Below are positions 1-39,347 of a DNA stretch of 39,347 bases, piece by piece. Every line of letters starts with the position of its first letter. Positions within the stretch are counted from its first letter, which is position 1. Under the pieces are notes generated by a model, which was not told the DNA's origin, made no database searches, and worked only from the letters and a program-made list of their open reading frames with translations. Position numbers and translations under genes: made by a program. Source of the DNA: a virus; IMG/VR virus record IMGVR_UViG_3300045107_000057, positions 1 through 39,347 of that record; one strand, given 5' to 3'.

Positions 1-127
1 AAGAAAAAAGTCTAGTGCAAAAGCAAAAAGAAAGGAGCGAGAAAGACTGCCATTTCTCGCCCCTGTATTTACAACTTACGCTGCTTACGCTGCTTACGCT
101 GCTTACGCTGCTTACGCTGCTTACGCT
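1..127. repeat. Direct terminal repeat, copy 1 (circular assembly overlap)
   Basis: Identical base for base to 39221-39347. The length, 127, equals the largest k-mer commonly used by de Bruijn assemblers, so the simplest reading is a circular contig overlap rather than a biological terminal repeat. The genome is then 39,220 bp and the minus-strand operon is continuous across the join. A circularly permuted or longer terminally redundant virion genome would assemble the same way. Confidence 0.93.
37..60 (-). terminator. Hairpin with U-rich tail between SSB-like gene and DNA polymerase
   Basis: Perfect 8-bp stem (37-44 with 53-60, GCGAGAAA/TTTCTCGC) and an 8-nt loop. Read on the minus strand it is followed by a pyrimidine-rich tract with several T runs. 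It lies downstream of the gene at 130-576 and upstream of the polymerase gene starting at 39216 on the circle. The T runs are interrupted, so it may be a partial terminator or attenuator, or an mRNA processing or stability element. The same hairpin reappears at 39257-39280 because of the terminal repeat. Confidence 0.5.
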
Positions 128-6372: not shown

Positions 6373-6790
6373 GAAAGTTCCTTGCATTTGAATAGTTGTT
6401 AACAGTGCCTACAGTGGGTGGAGTTTTTATGCTCCAAACTTTGTAGACTATAAAACTCTCACCGTTCCAGGTGCGCCTTGATACCAGCACTGCGCGGCAA
6501 GCCAACAGCAGTGCAATGGGCAAATCTCCGTGGACTAGCACACTCTTTGTTTTTGCTAGATACAAAGCAGTAGAAGCATCTGCCCCTGACAGCAGTTCAA
6601 ATGGCTGTACTTTGATGCCTGAATTTTCTGCTTTCATCAAAGAAGGCGGAAGAAAAAGAACAGTACGAAGTGTTTCGTAGATTAGCTGATGTCTAGCGTT
6701 AGGTGTAAAGGCGTTGTTTTTAAAGTTAAAAAGCTCCTTTCCAAGAGTTTCCGGAAGAGTCTCAGAATTAAAAATAGCTTTAGTTGTCAT
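6365..6790 (-). CDS. Hypothetical protein
   Basis: 141 aa from ATG 6790, which overlaps the end of the 398-aa gene and has GAGGAG 7 nt upstream. Not recognised. Segments TLGKELFNFKNNAFTPNARHQLIYETLRTVLFLPPSL and DLPIALLLACRAVLVSRRTW suggest a small alpha/beta globular protein. No zinc or NTPase motif is visible. Translationally coupled on both sides. Confidence 0.72.
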   Translation of the reverse strand: MTTKAIFNSETLPETLGKELFNFKNNAFTPNARHQLIYETLRTVLFLPPSLMKAENSGIKVQPFELLSGADASTALYLAKTKSVLVHGDLPIALLLACRAVLVSRRTWNGESFIVYKVWSIKTPPTVGTVNNYSNARNFHE

Positions 6791-7976
6791 ACAAATTCTC
6801 CTCATCATCATCAGTATTTGGAGTGTTAAGATTAAGAAGGCCCGACAGTTCAGTGATAGAATCTCCAGTACCTATGAAGGGTGTTATGTCGGGAACGTAA
6901 GAAGGAGACACTGTAACAGTGGCTTGTTTGTTAATGGCAGCGTCCCGATTCTTAGAGAGATTCGTGTGCGCCAATTTCCATTTAGAGTGTGCAACAATCC
7001 ACTTCACCTTAGAAGGGAAGTCTTTTAGCTGGGGTTCAATCTCTGAAATGCCGCCAGAATCTTTCTCTTGTTGCACTGCCTCTGGAATAAGAATCTCAAA
7101 AGTAGAGAACCGAGTTTGCAGTAATTTTCTCTTGTACGTTAGCCGTTCTAAAAAAGCATGGCTGATAGAAGTACCAAGAGGAAGTTCACAAAGAACAATC
7201 TCCTCGAACAGGTCAATGTCAGCCAGTGTAAACTGTATAATTTCTTCTTCAGTCTCTGCATCAAACAAGTCCCACATCCAGCCCTCAGTATCTCTAGAGT
7301 ATCGGGGAGGAATATGAGCAAGAAACCAGCGCCATAATAGCTTTTTGCTTTTAGGTGCTTTGGTAACTAGATCGTTACGGATGGCCACCAGTGCAAGCTC
7401 TGCGCTTTTTAGCTTCTCTAGTTCTACCGCTTCTTTGACTTTTGTTTCGTAGTCTTTCTTGACTTGCCAGCAGACTTGCAGAAAAGGTTGAAGCTCTACA
7501 GCAGGTGTATCTTGTCCGTAGCGTTTAGAGATTCTAAGCCCTGGAAATTTAAAGCGGTGAGATTCAAGGTAGTTTTTCCAGTAACTCAGTTGCATCAAGG
7601 AAGTCCAGCAACCAGAAACTTCTTGGATAGTAGGAAGCCAGGGCGTGTCTTGTTTAACATCTGCCATAGCATGTAACAATGCAAGGGCAGTTATTTGCAG
7701 TAGCTTCTCTTGTTTTGCTGTTAGTGCTGCATCTGCTGCTTGCTCTGGAGTCAGGGAACAAAAGTTTGTCCATGCATTGTGTGCAAACTTTAAAAGTGCT
7801 CCTGGTTCTAAAGAGAACAGAGGATGCAAAGTCTGTGTTTGTTTCCAGTGTGTCATGTACGGAACATGACCAGCAACTGTAATTAGCTCTAGCTTTCCGA
7901 GATAACTGCCACTGTATTGGCATGTTAGCACGTGAGTTTGCAGCTTTGAGCCCGTAAAAAAAAGTTCAGGTGTCAT
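6780..7976 (-). CDS. 398-aa early protein with acidic C-terminal tail
   Basis: 398 aa from ATG 7976 (AGGAG 6 nt upstream); the longer frame back to 8126 would overlap the helicase and is not needed. Not recognised by motif. The middle is helical and basic (QVKKDYETKVKEAVELEKLKSAEL; KAPKSKKLLWRWFLAHIPPRYSR). The C-terminus is a low-complexity tail ending TPNTDDDEENLYDN, resembling protein-interaction tails of SSBs and replication loaders. Placed directly after the helicase and micropeptide, it is a candidate replication initiator, helicase partner or primase substitute, because no other gene fills those roles. That role is inference. Confidence 0.75.
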   Translation of the reverse strand: MTPELFFTGSKLQTHVLTCQYSGSYLGKLELITVAGHVPYMTHWKQTQTLHPLFSLEPGALLKFAHNAWTNFCSLTPEQAADAALTAKQEKLLQITALALLHAMADVKQDTPWLPTIQEVSGCWTSLMQLSYWKNYLESHRFKFPGLRISKRYGQDTPAVELQPFLQVCWQVKKDYETKVKEAVELEKLKSAELALVAIRNDLVTKAPKSKKLLWRWFLAHIPPRYSRDTEGWMWDLFDAETEEEIIQFTLADIDLFEEIVLCELPLGTSISHAFLERLTYKRKLLQTRFSTFEILIPEAVQQEKDSGGISEIEPQLKDFPSKVKWIVAHSKWKLAHTNLSKNRDAAINKQATVTVSPSYVPDITPFIGTGDSITELSGLLNLNTPNTDDDEENLYDN

Positions 7977-7999
7977 TCTTACTCCTAGTGGTGCGCGGG

Positions 8000-8080
8000 T
8001 TACAGGAAGCTTGCAAAGAAGAAGATTGCAAGCACAAGAAGAAACGCCATGAACAGCTTCAAGTCTGGGTGTAGTTTCAT
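8000..8080 (-). CDS. 26-aa single-TM micropeptide
   Basis: ATG 8080, TAA 8000. The peptide has a short polar start (MKLHPDLK) and then one continuous hydrophobic helix (LFMAFLLVLAIFFFASFL) to the C-terminus, a typical single-span membrane peptide with the basic end inside. A strong ribosome-binding site, GAGGAG, lies 8 nt upstream within the last codons of the helicase gene. It fills the gap between the helicase stop (8086) and the next gene's ribosome-binding site. Possible roles are a small early membrane effector or anchor; nothing more can be said. Confidence 0.65.
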   Translation of the reverse strand: MKLHPDLKLFMAFLLVLAIFFFASFL

Positions 8081-8085
8081 TGGTT

Positions 8086-9897
8086 TTACTCCTCGGTAGT
8101 TTGGGCTTCGCTCGCTTCTTTTGCAAACTTCTCTTTCAGAGAAATTAGCTTTTCTGCAAGCGTGTTTCCTTTCAGTCGTGGAGATTTTGCAGCTTTTGTT
8201 AGTGTCCCAGCTTTCACGCCACGATCAGGTTCGCAGATGATTAGCAGTTCTTTAGATGCTCTGGTGATTGCAGTGTAGAGCAGTTCTCTGCTGCACATTT
8301 GTGCATGTTTGCTGTGAAGGATTAGCAAAACTTTTCTCCACTCTGAACCCTGGCTTTTATGTACTGTTGTTACATAGCCAAAGAGCATGGCATTCAGTTC
8401 TGCTGCGGTGTCTAGAGTATCTACTTCGTAATCTTCTACAGTCAGCTCTGAGTCAGACGGACTCCAATCAGCAGGATTACTGCCATTAAGATAGCGGATA
8501 GTAACTGCGTGGCTTGCTTGATGGCTACGATCTTCTATCTCACTGTGCGTGCTTACCATTTGCTGTAGTAATGCATCAACATCAGTGCTTGCAAGAGACT
8601 CTTGCCACTGAGATGCATTACTATTTGCAATTTTTACCGCCCCGCCCCAGCGGTCTATTTTGTAGACTAGGGGAGAAAGCGGCAGCTTGCCGCTGTAGCT
8701 TCTGTTTCTGGCAATGTTTGTAATGACAGCCTCTCGCTTATTAACAAAGACCTTGTCACCCACTGCAAAGTAGAGCTTGTTAAACCCGGCCACTATCTCA
8801 AAGACTTCCGCCCCACGTTCGCGGCCAAGCCAGTCTGCAATTCTTTGGTTAAGTTCAATAGTTCCAAAGCCTACATTGAATGGACAAAGAATCATGTCTT
8901 GGTAGACATCAAGCACTTGTTCTTTAATTGCAGCTTTGCAAAAGTTACCGGCTTTAGTTAGTGCATCTTCCCAAGAGATTGATTTGCTCCAGGGCAAAAT
9001 AGAAAGCTTACCATGCTCTCCTTTATCAATTACAATCTTCTCCGTCACGGGGATTGTTTTGCCGTCTTTCATCTCAGTAGCAAGGCTGATAATTGGAGAT
9101 TCTAGGGCTTGCCTGTAGACTTGGGTAAGTTCTACAATTGGAAGCTCTAGCAGTTTTTTGCCAAGGATAGGCCCACCGTACACTGGCGGCAGTTGGTTAA
9201 GATCACCAAGAAACAACCATTGCACAGCACCAGGGTTTGGCAGTGCGTCTATTAACAGATCAATGAGCGCACAATCAACCATTGAACTTTCATCAACTAC
9301 TATTGTGCGTAGACTAGCAGGCAGCGGATTGAACTTGTTCTTAGCAGGCTCAAATCGCATTGTTTTCTTAAGCTCTTTAGTTACTGGATCTTCTATTTCA
9401 TAGGGCACTGGCCGAAACTCTAGCACTTTATGAATAGTTGCGATTGTAACGTCAGAAGAAAAATGCTTTGCAATCTGCCGCACTGCCATGTTAGTGAAAG
9501 AACAAAGAACTATGCCAGGCTTTCCTGGCAACAAATACTTTGTTGCTTCTCGCCCTTGAATTATTGGCAGCCGGTTGTTTGCAATCAAAGAAGATACTAG
9601 CCCTTTTAGGGTGCTAGTTTTTCCAGTACCTGCCGCTCCGATAAGGCAGAAAGATTTGCCTTCCAGGCCAGTGGTGATTCCTAACAACTGCTCAGAGTTC
9701 CAATCTCTAGATTGGTCTACTTTCCAACGATTAAGCGTAGCTTCTTGTTGGACGGGTGTAGCTGTAAGATGGGCAGAAAGAATAGCAGCTTCTTGTTGTT
9801 TCTGTGCTTCTGTGCGCGCCTGGGCAGCAGCTGCTAATCGTGCCCTTGCTGCTGCTATCTTAGCTTGCAAAGCTGCGGGTAGTTGATTGTTACTCAT
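8086..9897 (-). CDS. SF1B RecD/Dda-like DNA helicase
   Basis: 603 aa. Superfamily 1 motifs in order: Walker A GAAGTGKT (87-94), motif Ia LCSFTNMAVRQ (about 131-141), Walker B VVDESSM (D202, E203), motif III GDLNQLPPVY (231-240), motif IV LTQVYRQ (257-263), and near the C-terminus GYVTTVHKSQGSEW plus LLYTAITRASKEL (motifs V and VI). This is the 5'-3' SF1B layout of RecD/Dda/Pif1. The first 50 residues are an Ala/Gln-rich probable coiled coil. ATG 9897 overlaps the preceding stop by 4 bp. No DnaB-type helicase is found, so this enzyme probably serves replication-fork or origin unwinding. Confidence 0.92.
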   Translation of the reverse strand: MSNNQLPAALQAKIAAARARLAAAAQARTEAQKQQEAAILSAHLTATPVQQEATLNRWKVDQSRDWNSEQLLGITTGLEGKSFCLIGAAGTGKTSTLKGLVSSLIANNRLPIIQGREATKYLLPGKPGIVLCSFTNMAVRQIAKHFSSDVTIATIHKVLEFRPVPYEIEDPVTKELKKTMRFEPAKNKFNPLPASLRTIVVDESSMVDCALIDLLIDALPNPGAVQWLFLGDLNQLPPVYGGPILGKKLLELPIVELTQVYRQALESPIISLATEMKDGKTIPVTEKIVIDKGEHGKLSILPWSKSISWEDALTKAGNFCKAAIKEQVLDVYQDMILCPFNVGFGTIELNQRIADWLGRERGAEVFEIVAGFNKLYFAVGDKVFVNKREAVITNIARNRSYSGKLPLSPLVYKIDRWGGAVKIANSNASQWQESLASTDVDALLQQMVSTHSEIEDRSHQASHAVTIRYLNGSNPADWSPSDSELTVEDYEVDTLDTAAELNAMLFGYVTTVHKSQGSEWRKVLLILHSKHAQMCSRELLYTAITRASKELLIICEPDRGVKAGTLTKAAKSPRLKGNTLAEKLISLKEKFAKEASEAQTTEE

Positions 9898-10641: not shown

Positions 10642-10670
10642 ATGATATCGCATTGACCCCGTTTTGTCAA
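10642..10670 (-). promoter_or_regulatory. Major early leftward promoter (sigma70)
   Basis: TTGACA (complement of 10665-10670), exactly 17 bp, TATCAT (complement of 10642-10647). Predicted start near 10635, about 80 nt before the first gene. It shares an 11-bp block (complement of 10664-10674) with the promoter at 6003-6031. Confidence 0.82.
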
Positions 10671-10840
10671 GTGGTTTTTGCTTTACACTGGGCAGTTTTT
10701 GTTGATAGCTTGCTACTGCTGTACGTGGCGCGCAGGCTCGTGGATTCTCTTTCGTCAGGATTCCCCTGTAATCCATGTAACTCTGTAACTATGTAACGAG
10801 GGGGTGCCCTGCCCTGCTACCCTCTCGCCCCGGGCGTACC

Positions 10841-10880
10841 CTCACACTCTGCTACTGCCGGGCTCTCTCACACTCTGCTA
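10841..10880. repeat. 14-bp direct repeat within the palindrome
   Basis: CTCACACTCTGCTA occurs at 10841-10854 and again at 10867-10880, a 26-bp period (about 2.5 helical turns). An inverse relative of its core lies at 10989-10996 in the other arm. Confidence 0.8.
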
Positions 10881-10997
10881 GTTATGGCACCCTATTTTGT
10901 GGTTTGATGTATATTTGAACCCCCTCTTTAATTTTAAAAGTCAAAGAGAGGGATAGGGAGAGATACTAGGAGGGAGAGAGATACTAATAGAGTGTGC

Positions 10998-11029
10998 GGG
11001 AGAGGGGGGTGCGGGAGGGGAGGGGGGGG
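10998..11029 (+). other. G-quadruplex-like tract
   Basis: Five runs of 3-8 guanines within 32 nt on the plus strand (10998-11000, 11004-11009, 11013-11015, 11017-11020, 11022-11029), with loops of 1-3 nt. It lies at the right end of the palindrome beside the inner iteron arm. Confidence 0.7.
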
Positions 11030-11234
11030 TATGTTACATAGTTACAGTGTTACAAGCATTACAGAGTTACAGAGGAATCCTGAGAAAGCGAGAAAGTGAG
11101 ACTTGTTTACGTTAGCTTTTAATGCCGGAGAAAGAGGACAGGCCTGCTATTAGCAGTTTTCTTACTAACAGTGCGTAGTGATAGTTACAGACTATGATAA
11201 CAGCAGAGACAGGAAAAAGCTATCATACCGGCAG

Positions 11235-11361: not shown

Positions 11362-12051
11362 ATGAAAGTTACTACGCATCCGACCACCGGTCAAAACATG
11401 TTCACGATTGACACCGCGCCCACGGGCCTGCAAGTCGGCGAAATCCTTGTGAGTGCTGATCGTCGGCAAAGCAGCAAAGGCCCTCAGCTAAGTGATGCTG
11501 AGCGCATACGTCGAGTGATCCTACCAGCAGGCTTTTGGGGCCCGTTCGAGGTCACTAGCAGCGGGCTGCGAAGCCCGCACAGTACTGCGCTGGCTGAACT
11601 CTTGGTGCAGAGCCTTCGCCGCATCGCCGGAGAATTTCTTCGTGACTACCTAGCCGAGCATCCGATGGCCCGCACAGTCAATGTTAGCAGCTTCCTGCCG
11701 GGCCCGCTGTTGGCCTGGCACACAGCTAACGCTGCTAGCGGAGGCTCTATCACGTTCACTCGTGAGGAGGTCGAAGAGTGGTTCCCAAGCAGCAAGCTGC
11801 ACGCTGTCATGGCGGCCAAGGGCCCAGACTTTGTGGTGTTTATGGTCAAGCGCCTAGCAGCGCTGGCTGCGAAAAACCACGGCCTGAAAACTGAGCAGGA
11901 GGCCGATAAGCTCATTACTTTGCTGGCTGCCGACGCCGAAGCTGCTGATGCTCCTCAACTCGTGCTGGACCTGGTGCAGCGCCTGAACCACATCAGCAGA
12001 AGCCTCGCGGCCAGGAAGGATGAGCGGGCCTTGACGCTGGACGACTGCTGA
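11362..12051 (+). CDS. Unrecognised 229-aa protein, high G+C
   Basis: 229 aa, ATG 11362, TGA 12049-12051. Not recognised. Soluble and mostly helical: a polar N-terminus, a middle segment LAELLVQSLRRIAGEFLRDYLAEHP, then REEVEEWFPSSKLHAVMAAKGPDFVVFMVKRLAALAAKNHG, and a helical acidic end. No zinc or NTPase motif is seen. Sample lines give about 60% G+C against about 45% in neighbouring genes, a sign of recent acquisition. No clear Shine-Dalgarno. It has its own weak promoter, sits beside the putative origin, and is followed by hairpins rather than by the late operon. It could be a moron, an anti-defence factor or an origin-binding protein; none is supported directly. Confidence 0.72.
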   Translation: MKVTTHPTTGQNMFTIDTAPTGLQVGEILVSADRRQSSKGPQLSDAERIRRVILPAGFWGPFEVTSSGLRSPHSTALAELLVQSLRRIAGEFLRDYLAEHPMARTVNVSSFLPGPLLAWHTANAASGGSITFTREEVEEWFPSSKLHAVMAAKGPDFVVFMVKRLAALAAKNHGLKTEQEADKLITLLAADAEAADAPQLVLDLVQRLNHISRSLAARKDERALTLDDC

Positions 12052-12364: not shown

Positions 12365-12397
12365 ATGCTTTCAATCCTTCAGTCCTTTAATCCATGA
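12365..12397 (+). CDS. Possible leaderless 10-codon leader peptide coupled to TerS
   Basis: ATG at 12365 opens a 10-codon frame (MLSILQSFNP) whose TGA (12395-12397) overlaps the TerS start as ATGA. The ATG coincides with the predicted transcription start, and TerS has no Shine-Dalgarno, so TerS might be translated by re-initiation from this leaderless mini-ORF. Prediction from sequence layout only. Confidence 0.35.
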   Translation: MLSILQSFNP

Positions 12398-12963
12398 GTG
12401 CCAACACTGCTGTTCGTGAAAAGTTGCTGGGATTCTTAGCGGCCAAAGTCCCGCAAACCACCGCGGCCGCGGCTGCCGGTGTTTCCGACGCCTACGTTTC
12501 GCAACTTATGCGAGAACCGGACTTCTTAGCAGAACTAGCTGCTAGATCTGCGGGCTCCCTGGAAGCTGACATTAAACATGACAGCACCATAGAATCTGTA
12601 GAAGCTAAAGCTCTTGAGACGTTGGAGAAGAAACTGCCATTTGTACGGAGCGCCCTGGAAGCTGGCAGAATCTTTCAAATTCTTAACAGTGCTAAAAAGC
12701 GTGCTACCATAGACCCTGCAAGTGCTGGACTTGCTGGCGCTGCAAGAACCGTAACTATTGTGCTTCCTGCTGCTTCTCGCCCTGGCCTTAAATTTAACAG
12801 TGACAATCAAGTGATTGAAGTAGAAGGTCGTGTTATGGCTCCGCTCCCTAGCAGAGAGCTGCCAAATCTTGCAAAGCAAGCAGACGAAGAACGAGCCGCA
12901 GCTTTTTTAAGTACTGTGGCGCCTTTAAACACCGTCATTGGCGGCGTAGTAAAGGTGCTATAG
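12394..12963 (+). CDS. terS: Terminase small subunit
   Basis: 189 aa. The N-terminal helix-turn-helix (TTAAAAAGVSDAYVSQLMREPDF, about residues 22-44) is typical of small terminase subunits that recognise the packaging site; a helical oligomerisation segment (SVEAKALETLEKKLPFVRSALEAGRIFQIL) follows. It is the first gene of the late operon and sits 7 bp before TerL. There is no Shine-Dalgarno upstream of ATG 12394. Assigned by HTH and position, since TerS sequences diverge widely. Confidence 0.8.
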   Translation: MSANTAVREKLLGFLAAKVPQTTAAAAAGVSDAYVSQLMREPDFLAELAARSAGSLEADIKHDSTIESVEAKALETLEKKLPFVRSALEAGRIFQILNSAKKRATIDPASAGLAGAARTVTIVLPAASRPGLKFNSDNQVIEVEGRVMAPLPSRELPNLAKQADEERAAAFLSTVAPLNTVIGGVVKVL

Positions 12964-12970
12964 CGGTGCT

Positions 12971-14506
12971 ATGAATCCTCCAACTGATCACGCAGCAGAA
13001 ATAGAAAACCGCATTCTTGCAGTTGCAGCTTCTGTAGATGAGATTTCTGAAGCCGCCCAGGAAAATCTTGATTTTCTTGCTCAGCTTGTTCTTACTGATC
13101 TCTACGCTTATGGTTATCCCCCACTGTTTCACGCAATGTGGCAGCTTATTTGCGCCGAAGCTAATGCAAAAGAGGGAAAACCTAAGTACGCACTAGGTAT
13201 TCCTCGTGGATTTTCAAAAACTCTGGTGCTCAAGCTTTACGTAGTTTGGACAATTCTGTTCTCTAATCGTCGCTTCATTCTTGTTGTTTGCAACACCGCC
13301 ACTCTGGCAGAAAACTTTCTCAGCGATGTAGCAGACATGCTGGAGCACGCTAACATTGTTTCTACTTTTGGACACTGGTACGCAGCAGGAGAGCAAGACA
13401 CCCGAGCATTTAAAAAGTTTGCTTATCGTGGCCGTGACATTGTGCTTGCGGCGCTCGGAGCCGGCAGTTCCTTGCGCGGCCTTAACCTTAAGTTTCGTCG
13501 TCCTGATATTGTTATTATGGATGATATGCAAAACAGAGACGAAGCAGCAAATCCAGAAGTAGCCAAAGAACTCCTGATCTGGATGCTTGGTACTCTCATG
13601 AAAGCCTGTGATCCGCATCGCTGCGTTTTCATCTTTGTAGGAAATATGTATCCTTTCGAGGGTTCTATTCTTCGCAAACTAAAACATAGCAAAGAATGGA
13701 TAAGTTTTATCACTGGCGGCATTCTTGCAGATGGTCAAAGTTTGTGGCCCGAGCATCGCTCAATTTCCGACTTGCTCTCCGAGCTTCGCAGTGACACAGA
13801 GATGGGGCACCCTGAAATCTTTTTTTCCGAGGTGATGAATGATGAAGATTGCGGAACTGCTAGTGGTGTTGATGTAGGAAAAATTCCACTGTGCCCGCAA
13901 TTTCTTGACACAGTAGAGCATCAAGGCGGCTTTGTTATCATTGACCCGTCACTAGGAAAAAAGAAAGGTGACGATCTTGGTATTGGAGTAGTCCTCCTGT
14001 ACGATGGCATTCCGGTAGTTCGTGAGGTTATCTCTGAAAAGATGGATCCCGGAACCACTATTCAGAAAGCAACCCTACTAGCTGTAAAATATCACCTACA
14101 GTTGATTATAGTAGAAGGCGGTGCGTATCAAGCAACTTTGATTTTCTGGTTTAATTTTATCTACGCACAGCTAGGAGTGCAGGGCATCCATGTAGGTGAA
14201 ATCACCACAGGTGGAATGCAAAAAAATGCCAGAATCGGTGCAGCTTTAAAACTACTGCTGCCCACTGGCCAAGAAAAGCAGCCTAAGATCTATCTTCACA
14301 AAGATGCACGGGCTGCTGTAATCTATCAAATTACTCAATGGAAGCCTCTTAAAGCTCAAAACAAAGACGAGCTTCTTGATATCATTGCCTATGTTTATGC
14401 TGTCATAGAAAAGTTTCCTGACCGGCTTCCTGTGTTGCTACTAGCAAATGAAAATGATAGCATGAACGAAGCTTCTAGTAGCTCGACCCTAGAGCTAGCT
14501 TTTTAA
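12971..14506 (+). CDS. terL: Terminase large subunit
   Basis: 511 aa. N-terminal ATPase with a deviant Walker A GIPRGFSKT (76-84) and Walker B VIMDD (181-185, catalytic acidic pair), then a VFIFVGNMYP coupling segment. C-terminal RNase H-like nuclease begins FVIIDPSLGKKKGDD (D325, D334/D335) and ends with the acidic KDELLDIIAYVYA motif. The enzyme packages DNA into the prohead through the portal encoded next. The sequence style suggests a podovirus terminase; the packaging strategy cannot be read from it. Confidence 0.93.
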   Translation: MNPPTDHAAEIENRILAVAASVDEISEAAQENLDFLAQLVLTDLYAYGYPPLFHAMWQLICAEANAKEGKPKYALGIPRGFSKTLVLKLYVVWTILFSNRRFILVVCNTATLAENFLSDVADMLEHANIVSTFGHWYAAGEQDTRAFKKFAYRGRDIVLAALGAGSSLRGLNLKFRRPDIVIMDDMQNRDEAANPEVAKELLIWMLGTLMKACDPHRCVFIFVGNMYPFEGSILRKLKHSKEWISFITGGILADGQSLWPEHRSISDLLSELRSDTEMGHPEIFFSEVMNDEDCGTASGVDVGKIPLCPQFLDTVEHQGGFVIIDPSLGKKKGDDLGIGVVLLYDGIPVVREVISEKMDPGTTIQKATLLAVKYHLQLIIVEGGAYQATLIFWFNFIYAQLGVQGIHVGEITTGGMQKNARIGAALKLLLPTGQEKQPKIYLHKDARAAVIYQITQWKPLKAQNKDELLDIIAYVYAVIEKFPDRLPVLLLANENDSMNEASSSSTLELAF

Positions 14507-39220: not shown

Positions 39221-39347
39221 AAGAAAAAAGTCTAGTGCAAAAGCAAAAAGAAAGGAGCGAGAAAGACTGCCATTTCTCGCCCCTGTATTTACAACTTACG
39301 CTGCTTACGCTGCTTACGCTGCTTACGCTGCTTACGCTGCTTACGCT
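39221..39347. repeat. Direct terminal repeat, copy 2
   Basis: Exact second copy of bases 1-127. It begins 4 bp upstream of the DNA polymerase start codon (39216) and ends inside the 9-bp tandem array, so the array is cut short here but complete at the left end. Confidence 0.93.

Follow-up and report, generated by a model that had tools for sequence, protein, structure and literature searches.

How the circular small terminase subunit (TerS) selects viral DNA is debated, with wrapping and threading as the two proposals and weak or non-specific binding recorded in vitro (PMC9611059, PMC11331095, PMC4737164). In the pacL-pacC-pacR region of SPP1, TerS binds two regions that flank the site cut by the large terminase subunit (TerL), and these lie beside terS and promoters (PMC6316719). 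The pac site of P1 carries two groups of repeats, HEXA4 and HEXA3, which flank the cut and are bound by the pacase PacA/PacB (PMC10028697). The TerS protein of HK97 reads a single short site with the DNA threaded through its channel (PMC11331095), whereas the purified DNA-binding domain of SF6 TerS exhibits little sequence specificity (PMC4737164). For the Caulobacter phage Kuura, direct terminal repeats (DTRs) of 606 bp were determined with PhageTerm (PMC9959647).

We analysed a viral DNA record of 39,347 nucleotides (IMGVR_UViG_3300045107_000057), called the window here, which carries an imperfect palindrome of 329 bp (window 10755–11083) between its early and late genes. An earlier note on this DNA had read the palindrome as a probable phage origin or, failing that, as a protein-bound divergent switch. 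Our analysis makes it probable that the palindrome is instead a pac-type, genome-terminus-forming site at which this podovirus initiates DNA packaging.

The palindrome resembles P1 pac in having two groups of short repeats, although an end has been mapped between such groups in Kuura only. The repeats of P1 pac are TGATCA/G elements with a Dam site, seven of which occupy 161 bp inside pacA along with an IHF site. In contrast, the palindrome has longer, mirrored arrays of repeats (iterons) at a pitch of 8–9 bp, its TGTAAY words are without GATC, it is intergenic and upstream of terS, and it combines a strand-switch core with words that change rapidly between phages. The likeness to the SPP1/SF6 type of pac would be one of general working, wherein two regions surround a cleavage centre. 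However, the box repeats of SPP1 are few and mutually unlike and are hardly preferred by the SF6 DNA-binding domain (PMC4737164), whereas the palindrome arrays are regular and mirrored, and SPP1-type pac sites overlap the terS promoter and start, which the palindrome does not. Lambda cosB and HK97 cos share with the proposed site the character of a TerS-recognised packaging signal adjoining terminase genes (PMC9611059, PMC11331095), but are without mirrored iteron arrays. At the DTR boundary of Kuura, inverted GGGCAGT iterons surround an A-rich core, and this iteron element had not been described before. Kuura differs in being a distant relative, in its iteron pitch of 9–10 bp and in an extra minus-strand gene between the element and terS. 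The palindrome lacks TGATCA/Dam elements and neither resides in nor overlaps terS. As a packaging site it would thus be neither P1-type nor SPP1-type, but a variant of its own.

Genome organization around the palindrome

Self-comparison of the contig reveals that the ends of the record overlap by 127 bases, and thus the genome as assembled is a circle of 39,220 bp. The contig closes within a tandem TTACGCTGC 9-bp repeat (window 77–127 and 39297–39347), and the repeat count in the assembly may therefore differ from the true one. The virus is a podovirus whose relatives are the Pseudomonas phages PaP2/PaMx41 (Fredfastierviridae), Polaromonas phage Tiera, Aeromonas phage P5 and EBPR podovirus 3.

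Replication and early genes run leftward from about 10.7 kb and encode a family A DNA polymerase, a DUF3987 helicase/primase, an AAA_24 ATPase, a PD-(D/E)XK nuclease and a Dda-like helicase. Many of these phages also keep, in their replication region, a protein (f448; 448/398 aa, window 6780–8126) that is without a family or fold match and might initiate replication or act as a loader.

Structural genes run rightward from 11.36 kb, in the order f229, TerS, TerL and then a portal. The first late gene, f229 (11362–12051, + strand), encodes a 229-aa protein without assigned function and adjoins the palindrome in most relatives. The 189-aa TerS (12394–12963, + strand) was assigned by homology to the annotated TerS proteins of PaMx41 and Tiera and by its position adjoining TerL, the motor/nuclease (12971–14506, + strand). 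Its N-terminal helix-turn-helix (HTH) carries the recognition helix GVSDAYVSQ, which includes Asp32. The right end of the palindrome and terS are 1.3 kb apart, and f229 occupies the interval. Measured from the palindrome centre, terS lies 1.47 kb to the right, and this distance is 0.15–3 kb in the complete relatives measured.

Architecture of the palindrome

The nested dyads, iterons, direct repeat and opposite strand biases that the earlier note had described are all present. The 10-bp outer boundary arms are TCAGGATTCC (10755–10764), with a GATTCC motif common to many relatives, and GGAATCCTGA (11074–11083). Inside them, exact 15-bp arms (10783–10797 and 11033–11047) sit in a 32-nucleotide pair that is 91% complementary (10766–10797 and 11033–11064), and the palindrome also includes the dyad pair CACACTCT/AGAGTGTG and a core dyad, CCCTCTTT/AAAGAGAGGG.

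The left iteron array, TGTAATCCA-TGTAACTC-TGTAACTA-TGTAAC (10767–10797, + strand), consists of four TGTAAY units that start at positions 10767, 10776, 10784 and 10792, a pitch of 9-8-8 bp. The right array (11033–11071, − strand) consists of five inverted TGTAAY units, which read RTTACA and start at positions 11033, 11041, 11049, 11058 and 11066 (pitch 8-8-9-8 bp). As in iteron-type origins, the iterons adjoin an AT-rich segment.

Between the arrays, the strands switch from pyrimidine to purine at the palindrome centre. The pyrimidine-rich left half (10800–10919, 37% purine) holds two direct copies of the 14-bp sequence CTCACACTCTGCTA, which recur with a period of 26 bp (positions 10841 and 10867). 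The purine-rich right half (10936–11032, with 83% purine at 10936–11030) contains a run of eight G nucleotides at 11022–11029. The core, TTTTGTGGTTTGATGTATATTTGAACCCCCTCTTTAATTTTAAA (10896–10938), includes an ACCCCC-CTTTAA part that is recognisable across relatives with different iterons.

These features exceed what is found when the segment is shuffled with its dinucleotides preserved. Its top-scoring inverted repeat reaches 23, against a mean of 9.4 and a maximum of 18 in the shuffles, and nine iteron words are present where shuffles yield a mean of 0.28 and a maximum of 3. Furthermore, blind scans of the whole 39.2-kb circle place both the top dyad (16 pairs, against a genome mean of 0.08) and the top purine switch (114, with the next at 66 and a standard deviation of 18) at a centre near 10.92 kb. 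Folding of the segment as single-stranded DNA, a check that the earlier note had proposed, is 6.7 standard deviations better than that of shuffles (z = −6.7).

Conservation of the architecture in relatives

Loci from relatives were gathered via TerL and f229, and complete relatives and cultured phages were added. About 30 related phages, including the cultured phage Tiera, share mirrored arrays at a pitch of 8–9 bp and a core near ACCCCC-CTTTAA, located at the early/late gene boundary and upstream of terS; the strand switch is also kept. Many relatives have GATTCC...GGAATC borders, and in the closer ones the core is recognisable as ACCCCC(A/T)C-TTTAA-TTT. The earlier note had held that poor conservation of the iterons and arms in close relatives would speak against its reading, but the element is conserved.

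The iteron word differs strongly between phages and usually matches between the two arms of one phage. TGTAAC is the word of the window phage, G001, G002, L045 and L163, and GTAGC that of G004, L040, L043 and L205; others are GTGAC (G005), TGTGC (G006), TGTTC (G024), AATCAT (L189 and L204) and AGAAAC (L171). The 4-mer cosine is 0.67 between arms of one phage versus 0.15 between phages, and an arm's own partner is its best match in 26 of 34 cases, a count that includes one locus (L218) with only one arm sequenced. The pitch is mostly 8–9 bp and usually mirrored, with L043 using 7; the two arms have the same pitch in G004 and L040 (9-8-8), G005 (9-9-9-8) and L006 (9-9-8-8). Arm-matched words at a mirrored pitch of 8–9 bp are the signature of sites for a DNA-binding protein with repeated domains.

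The palindrome used directly as a DNA query against annotated phages gave no match, because its sequence evolves too fast. A search of viral contigs with the core DNA pattern returned only L006 and the L009/L010 pair besides chance matches. We also considered whether G-runs mark the right half as a conserved asymmetry but rejected this, since the difference (13 phages versus 7) is not significant. In the PaMx41/PaP2 phages, inspection by eye yields a degenerate candidate only (L015, 1970–2170). Its repeats are direct and CCTGGCTAA-like, and its core resembles that of the window inverted relative to terS.

Genome ends at the equivalent position

The Kuura record contains the exact 606-bp repeat. 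Relative to position 1, GGGCAGT iterons are located at −170, −161, −151 and −141, the A-rich core at −68 to −43, and inverted iterons at +35 and +108. In the 10.7 kb of Kuura sequence examined, GGGCAGT occurs seven times, six of them at this element. These positions place the virion terminus, the mapped left end, between the core and the right iterons of an element that, in so distant a phage (27% major capsid protein (MCP) identity), is assigned to the class by resemblance of layout and not by homology.

A corresponding break is observed in contigs of relatives. In four contigs of 34.7–43.5 kb (G014, G015, G016 and G025), one end contains the left array and the core, and the other opens with the right array; contig G018 likewise begins at the right array. 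We treat these breaks as supporting evidence only, since the contigs were chosen for having ends near TerL, and assemblies might also break at G-runs or inverted repeats. The Kuura virion end, along with breaks at the equivalent spot in five relatives, points to DNA packaging. By analogy, the terminus or cleavage zone of the window phage would be the purine-rich right half (10936–11032).

Against the packaging reading, PaP2/PaMx41-type records begin about 2 kb from their IGR, although this record start may not be a physical end. The PaP2-like phage Shea is reported to be terminally redundant and episomal (PMC13348215), and for Tiera no virion ends are reported.

Covariation of TerS with iteron words

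Among 28 phages with scorable iterons, TerS carries Asp32 in all seven whose words end in AAC and in none of the other 21, a grouping that was defined after seeing the TerS alignment and that sets aside phages with mixed or unclear words. Asp32 is the second position of the HTH recognition helix. No column of TerL, f229, the portal, gp252 or the MCP matches the AAC trait as well as this TerS position. The association spans five lineages, the trait changes five times on the TerL tree, and word and helix change together in three sister pairs: L191 (TGTAAC, SDSYVSQ) versus L205 (TGTAGC, SESYVSQ), L163 (TGTAAC, DDSYISQ) versus L164 (TGTACC, DPSWISQ) and L045 (GTAAC, SD) versus L043 (GTAGC, TP). 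In a regression corrected for relatedness that included all phages, Asp32 gave the strongest result for AAC among 3,477 tests (t = 5.6).

The rule is imperfect. Phage G024, which uses TGTTC words, also has Asp32 and is the one clear out-of-sample case, in which the rule failed; the words of G019 are mixed. Asp32 is thus associated with AAC but is not sufficient for it. Moreover, a partial correlation in sliding windows of eight columns ranks residues 94–106 of f229 first and the TerS HTH 259th of 1,426. Weighing the Asp32 association against G024 and this window correlation, we regard binding of the iterons by TerS as likely.

Two other candidate binders were rejected. The single f448 column that had matched AAC vanished with more genomes and equalised coverage, and the protein has no helpful family or fold match. 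For f229, there is no AAC-discriminating column and no helpful family or fold match, and its A2 alignment is too diverse for a scan.

A model for packaging initiation

In the model that we propose, oligomeric TerS would bind the two inverted arrays of 8–9-bp iterons with one HTH per iteron, and the paired TerS complexes would present the strand-asymmetric core to TerL. The cut by TerL would then fall between the core and the right array, generating the first packaged end. The display of HTHs on a ring is known for TerS (PMC4737164), and together with the 8–9-bp pitch it leads us to place HTHs on successive iterons. The low sequence specificity of the SF6 TerS domain (PMC4737164) speaks against such binding. 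The cut in the window phage would lie as in Kuura, where published read data map the end, with the contig breaks as support.

A possible extension, which we hold tentatively, is that TerS rings directly read a mirrored tandem iteron code, with two rings around the cut and a code that drifts quickly along with the recognition helix. If so, each phage would have a private packaging address, and this form of terminase recognition would be unlike the threading of HK97 or the non-specific binding of SF6. Mirrored arrays that apparently change with a TerS residue would make sequence readout by an HTH ring directly testable, with the natural variants serving as a ready-made mutant panel for TerS readout. 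The architecture also offers a means of predicting where packaging sites and genome ends lie in contigs of uncultivated phages, and it cautions against taking mirrored iterons at an early/late gene boundary for an origin by default.

Alternative functions for the palindrome

Inverted protein-binding repeats with an AT-rich spacer, located between divergent transcription units, characterize iteron origins and those of the HSV oriL/SV40 type. We consider it unlikely that the palindrome is primarily a bidirectional replication origin at which an initiator, either f448 (encoded beside the helicase genes) or f229, would bind the iterons and melt the AT-rich core. The iterons, the core and the switch in strand asymmetry at the early/late divergence are what such an origin might show, f448 is conserved in the replication neighbourhood of many relatives, and an f229 segment correlates best with iteron similarity in one test. 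Also, episomal persistence is reported for Shea, a PaP2-like phage (PMC13348215). However, f229 and f448 are without a known initiator fold at the sensitivity available, and with coverage equalised none of the f448 columns follows the AAC trait.

The GC-skew data are similarly divided. The cumulative minimum is near the site in G003, G004 and P5, and the maximum is near the antipode in most genomes, but the minimum is 6–13 kb away in six of 12 genomes, with offsets across the 12 ranging from −6.6 to +12.9 kb and only a few within about 1.5 kb. In the window genome, where the earlier note had proposed skew as a check, the minimum falls about 8 kb to the right of the palindrome. Skew was therefore rejected as an origin test, being inconsistent between genomes. 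An origin also leaves the Kuura virion terminus and the contig breaks in the right half unexplained.

Thus, the palindrome departs from these origin types in that no initiator was found, the skew minimum is inconsistent and the terminus evidence points to packaging. The absence of a recognisable initiator gene beside the palindrome, remarked on in the earlier note, holds among the proteins scanned. What survives of its origin reading is a conserved, presumably protein-bound iteron element at the early/late divergence point, whereas the assignment to replication is not supported by the initiator search, the skew, the Kuura end or the contig breaks. An origin function could coexist with packaging.

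More doubtful still is an operator or divergent switch, wherein a phage regulator on the iterons would control early transcription to the left and late transcription to the right. The palindrome does separate divergent transcription units and has promoters to either side. In SPP1, promoters overlap the packaging site, and TerS acts as a repressor of its own synthesis (PMC6316719). However, the strongest sigma-70-like promoters are mostly outside the arms (for example at −250 and −334 to the left and at +260 and +443 to the right) and point away, which weakens the switch. In the window, the early promoter TTGACA-17-TATCAT (10642–10670, − strand) lies outside the palindrome and points away from it. 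Strong promoters occupy comparable places in G001, L006, G002 and G005, the outward promoter of G001 and L006 being TTGACA-17-TATACT, and rightward sigma-70-like promoters are located at +443 in G001 and +260 in Tiera. Matches inside the palindrome are weaker in most phages, are not in register and are not conserved in position; central divergent sigma-70 promoters were rejected because their spacing is not conserved among phages. Two long mirrored arrays and a conserved core also exceed the needs of an operator, which would leave the termini unexplained. Of the switch reading in the earlier note, the presumable protein binding is kept, and the switch itself is weakened. As in SPP1, an operator function may add to the proposed packaging function.

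It is very improbable that the element goes unrecognised by proteins and is only an RNA or DNA structure (divergent leader hairpins or an R-loop region) or a degenerate inverted insertion: the favourable single-stranded folding and the purine-rich outward strands would fit, but the mirrored 8–9-bp pitch and the arm-matched, phage-specific words in most phages indicate protein sites, and the constant position next to terS across many divergent phages speaks against chance insertion.

Additional features near the palindrome

Beyond the right outer boundary of the palindrome, the window carries a CTTGTTTATTCTA-like element (11103–11115) that is also conserved in L006, L010, L040, L041, L043, L044 and L045. 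The neighbouring gene f229 is on the opposite strand yet still adjacent in G005, L189, L191, L204 and L205, and weakly so in L056 (157–846); it is also present in L047 (2350–2970). The predicted fold of its product is without a clear match, and the protein may be a second packaging or regulatory factor.

In Tiera (L109, OQ067478.1, record 43928–44072), the right half of the palindrome contains an exact tandem duplication of 73 bp. The two inverted iterons of Kuura (+35 and +108) are also 73 bp apart, an apparent tandem duplication.
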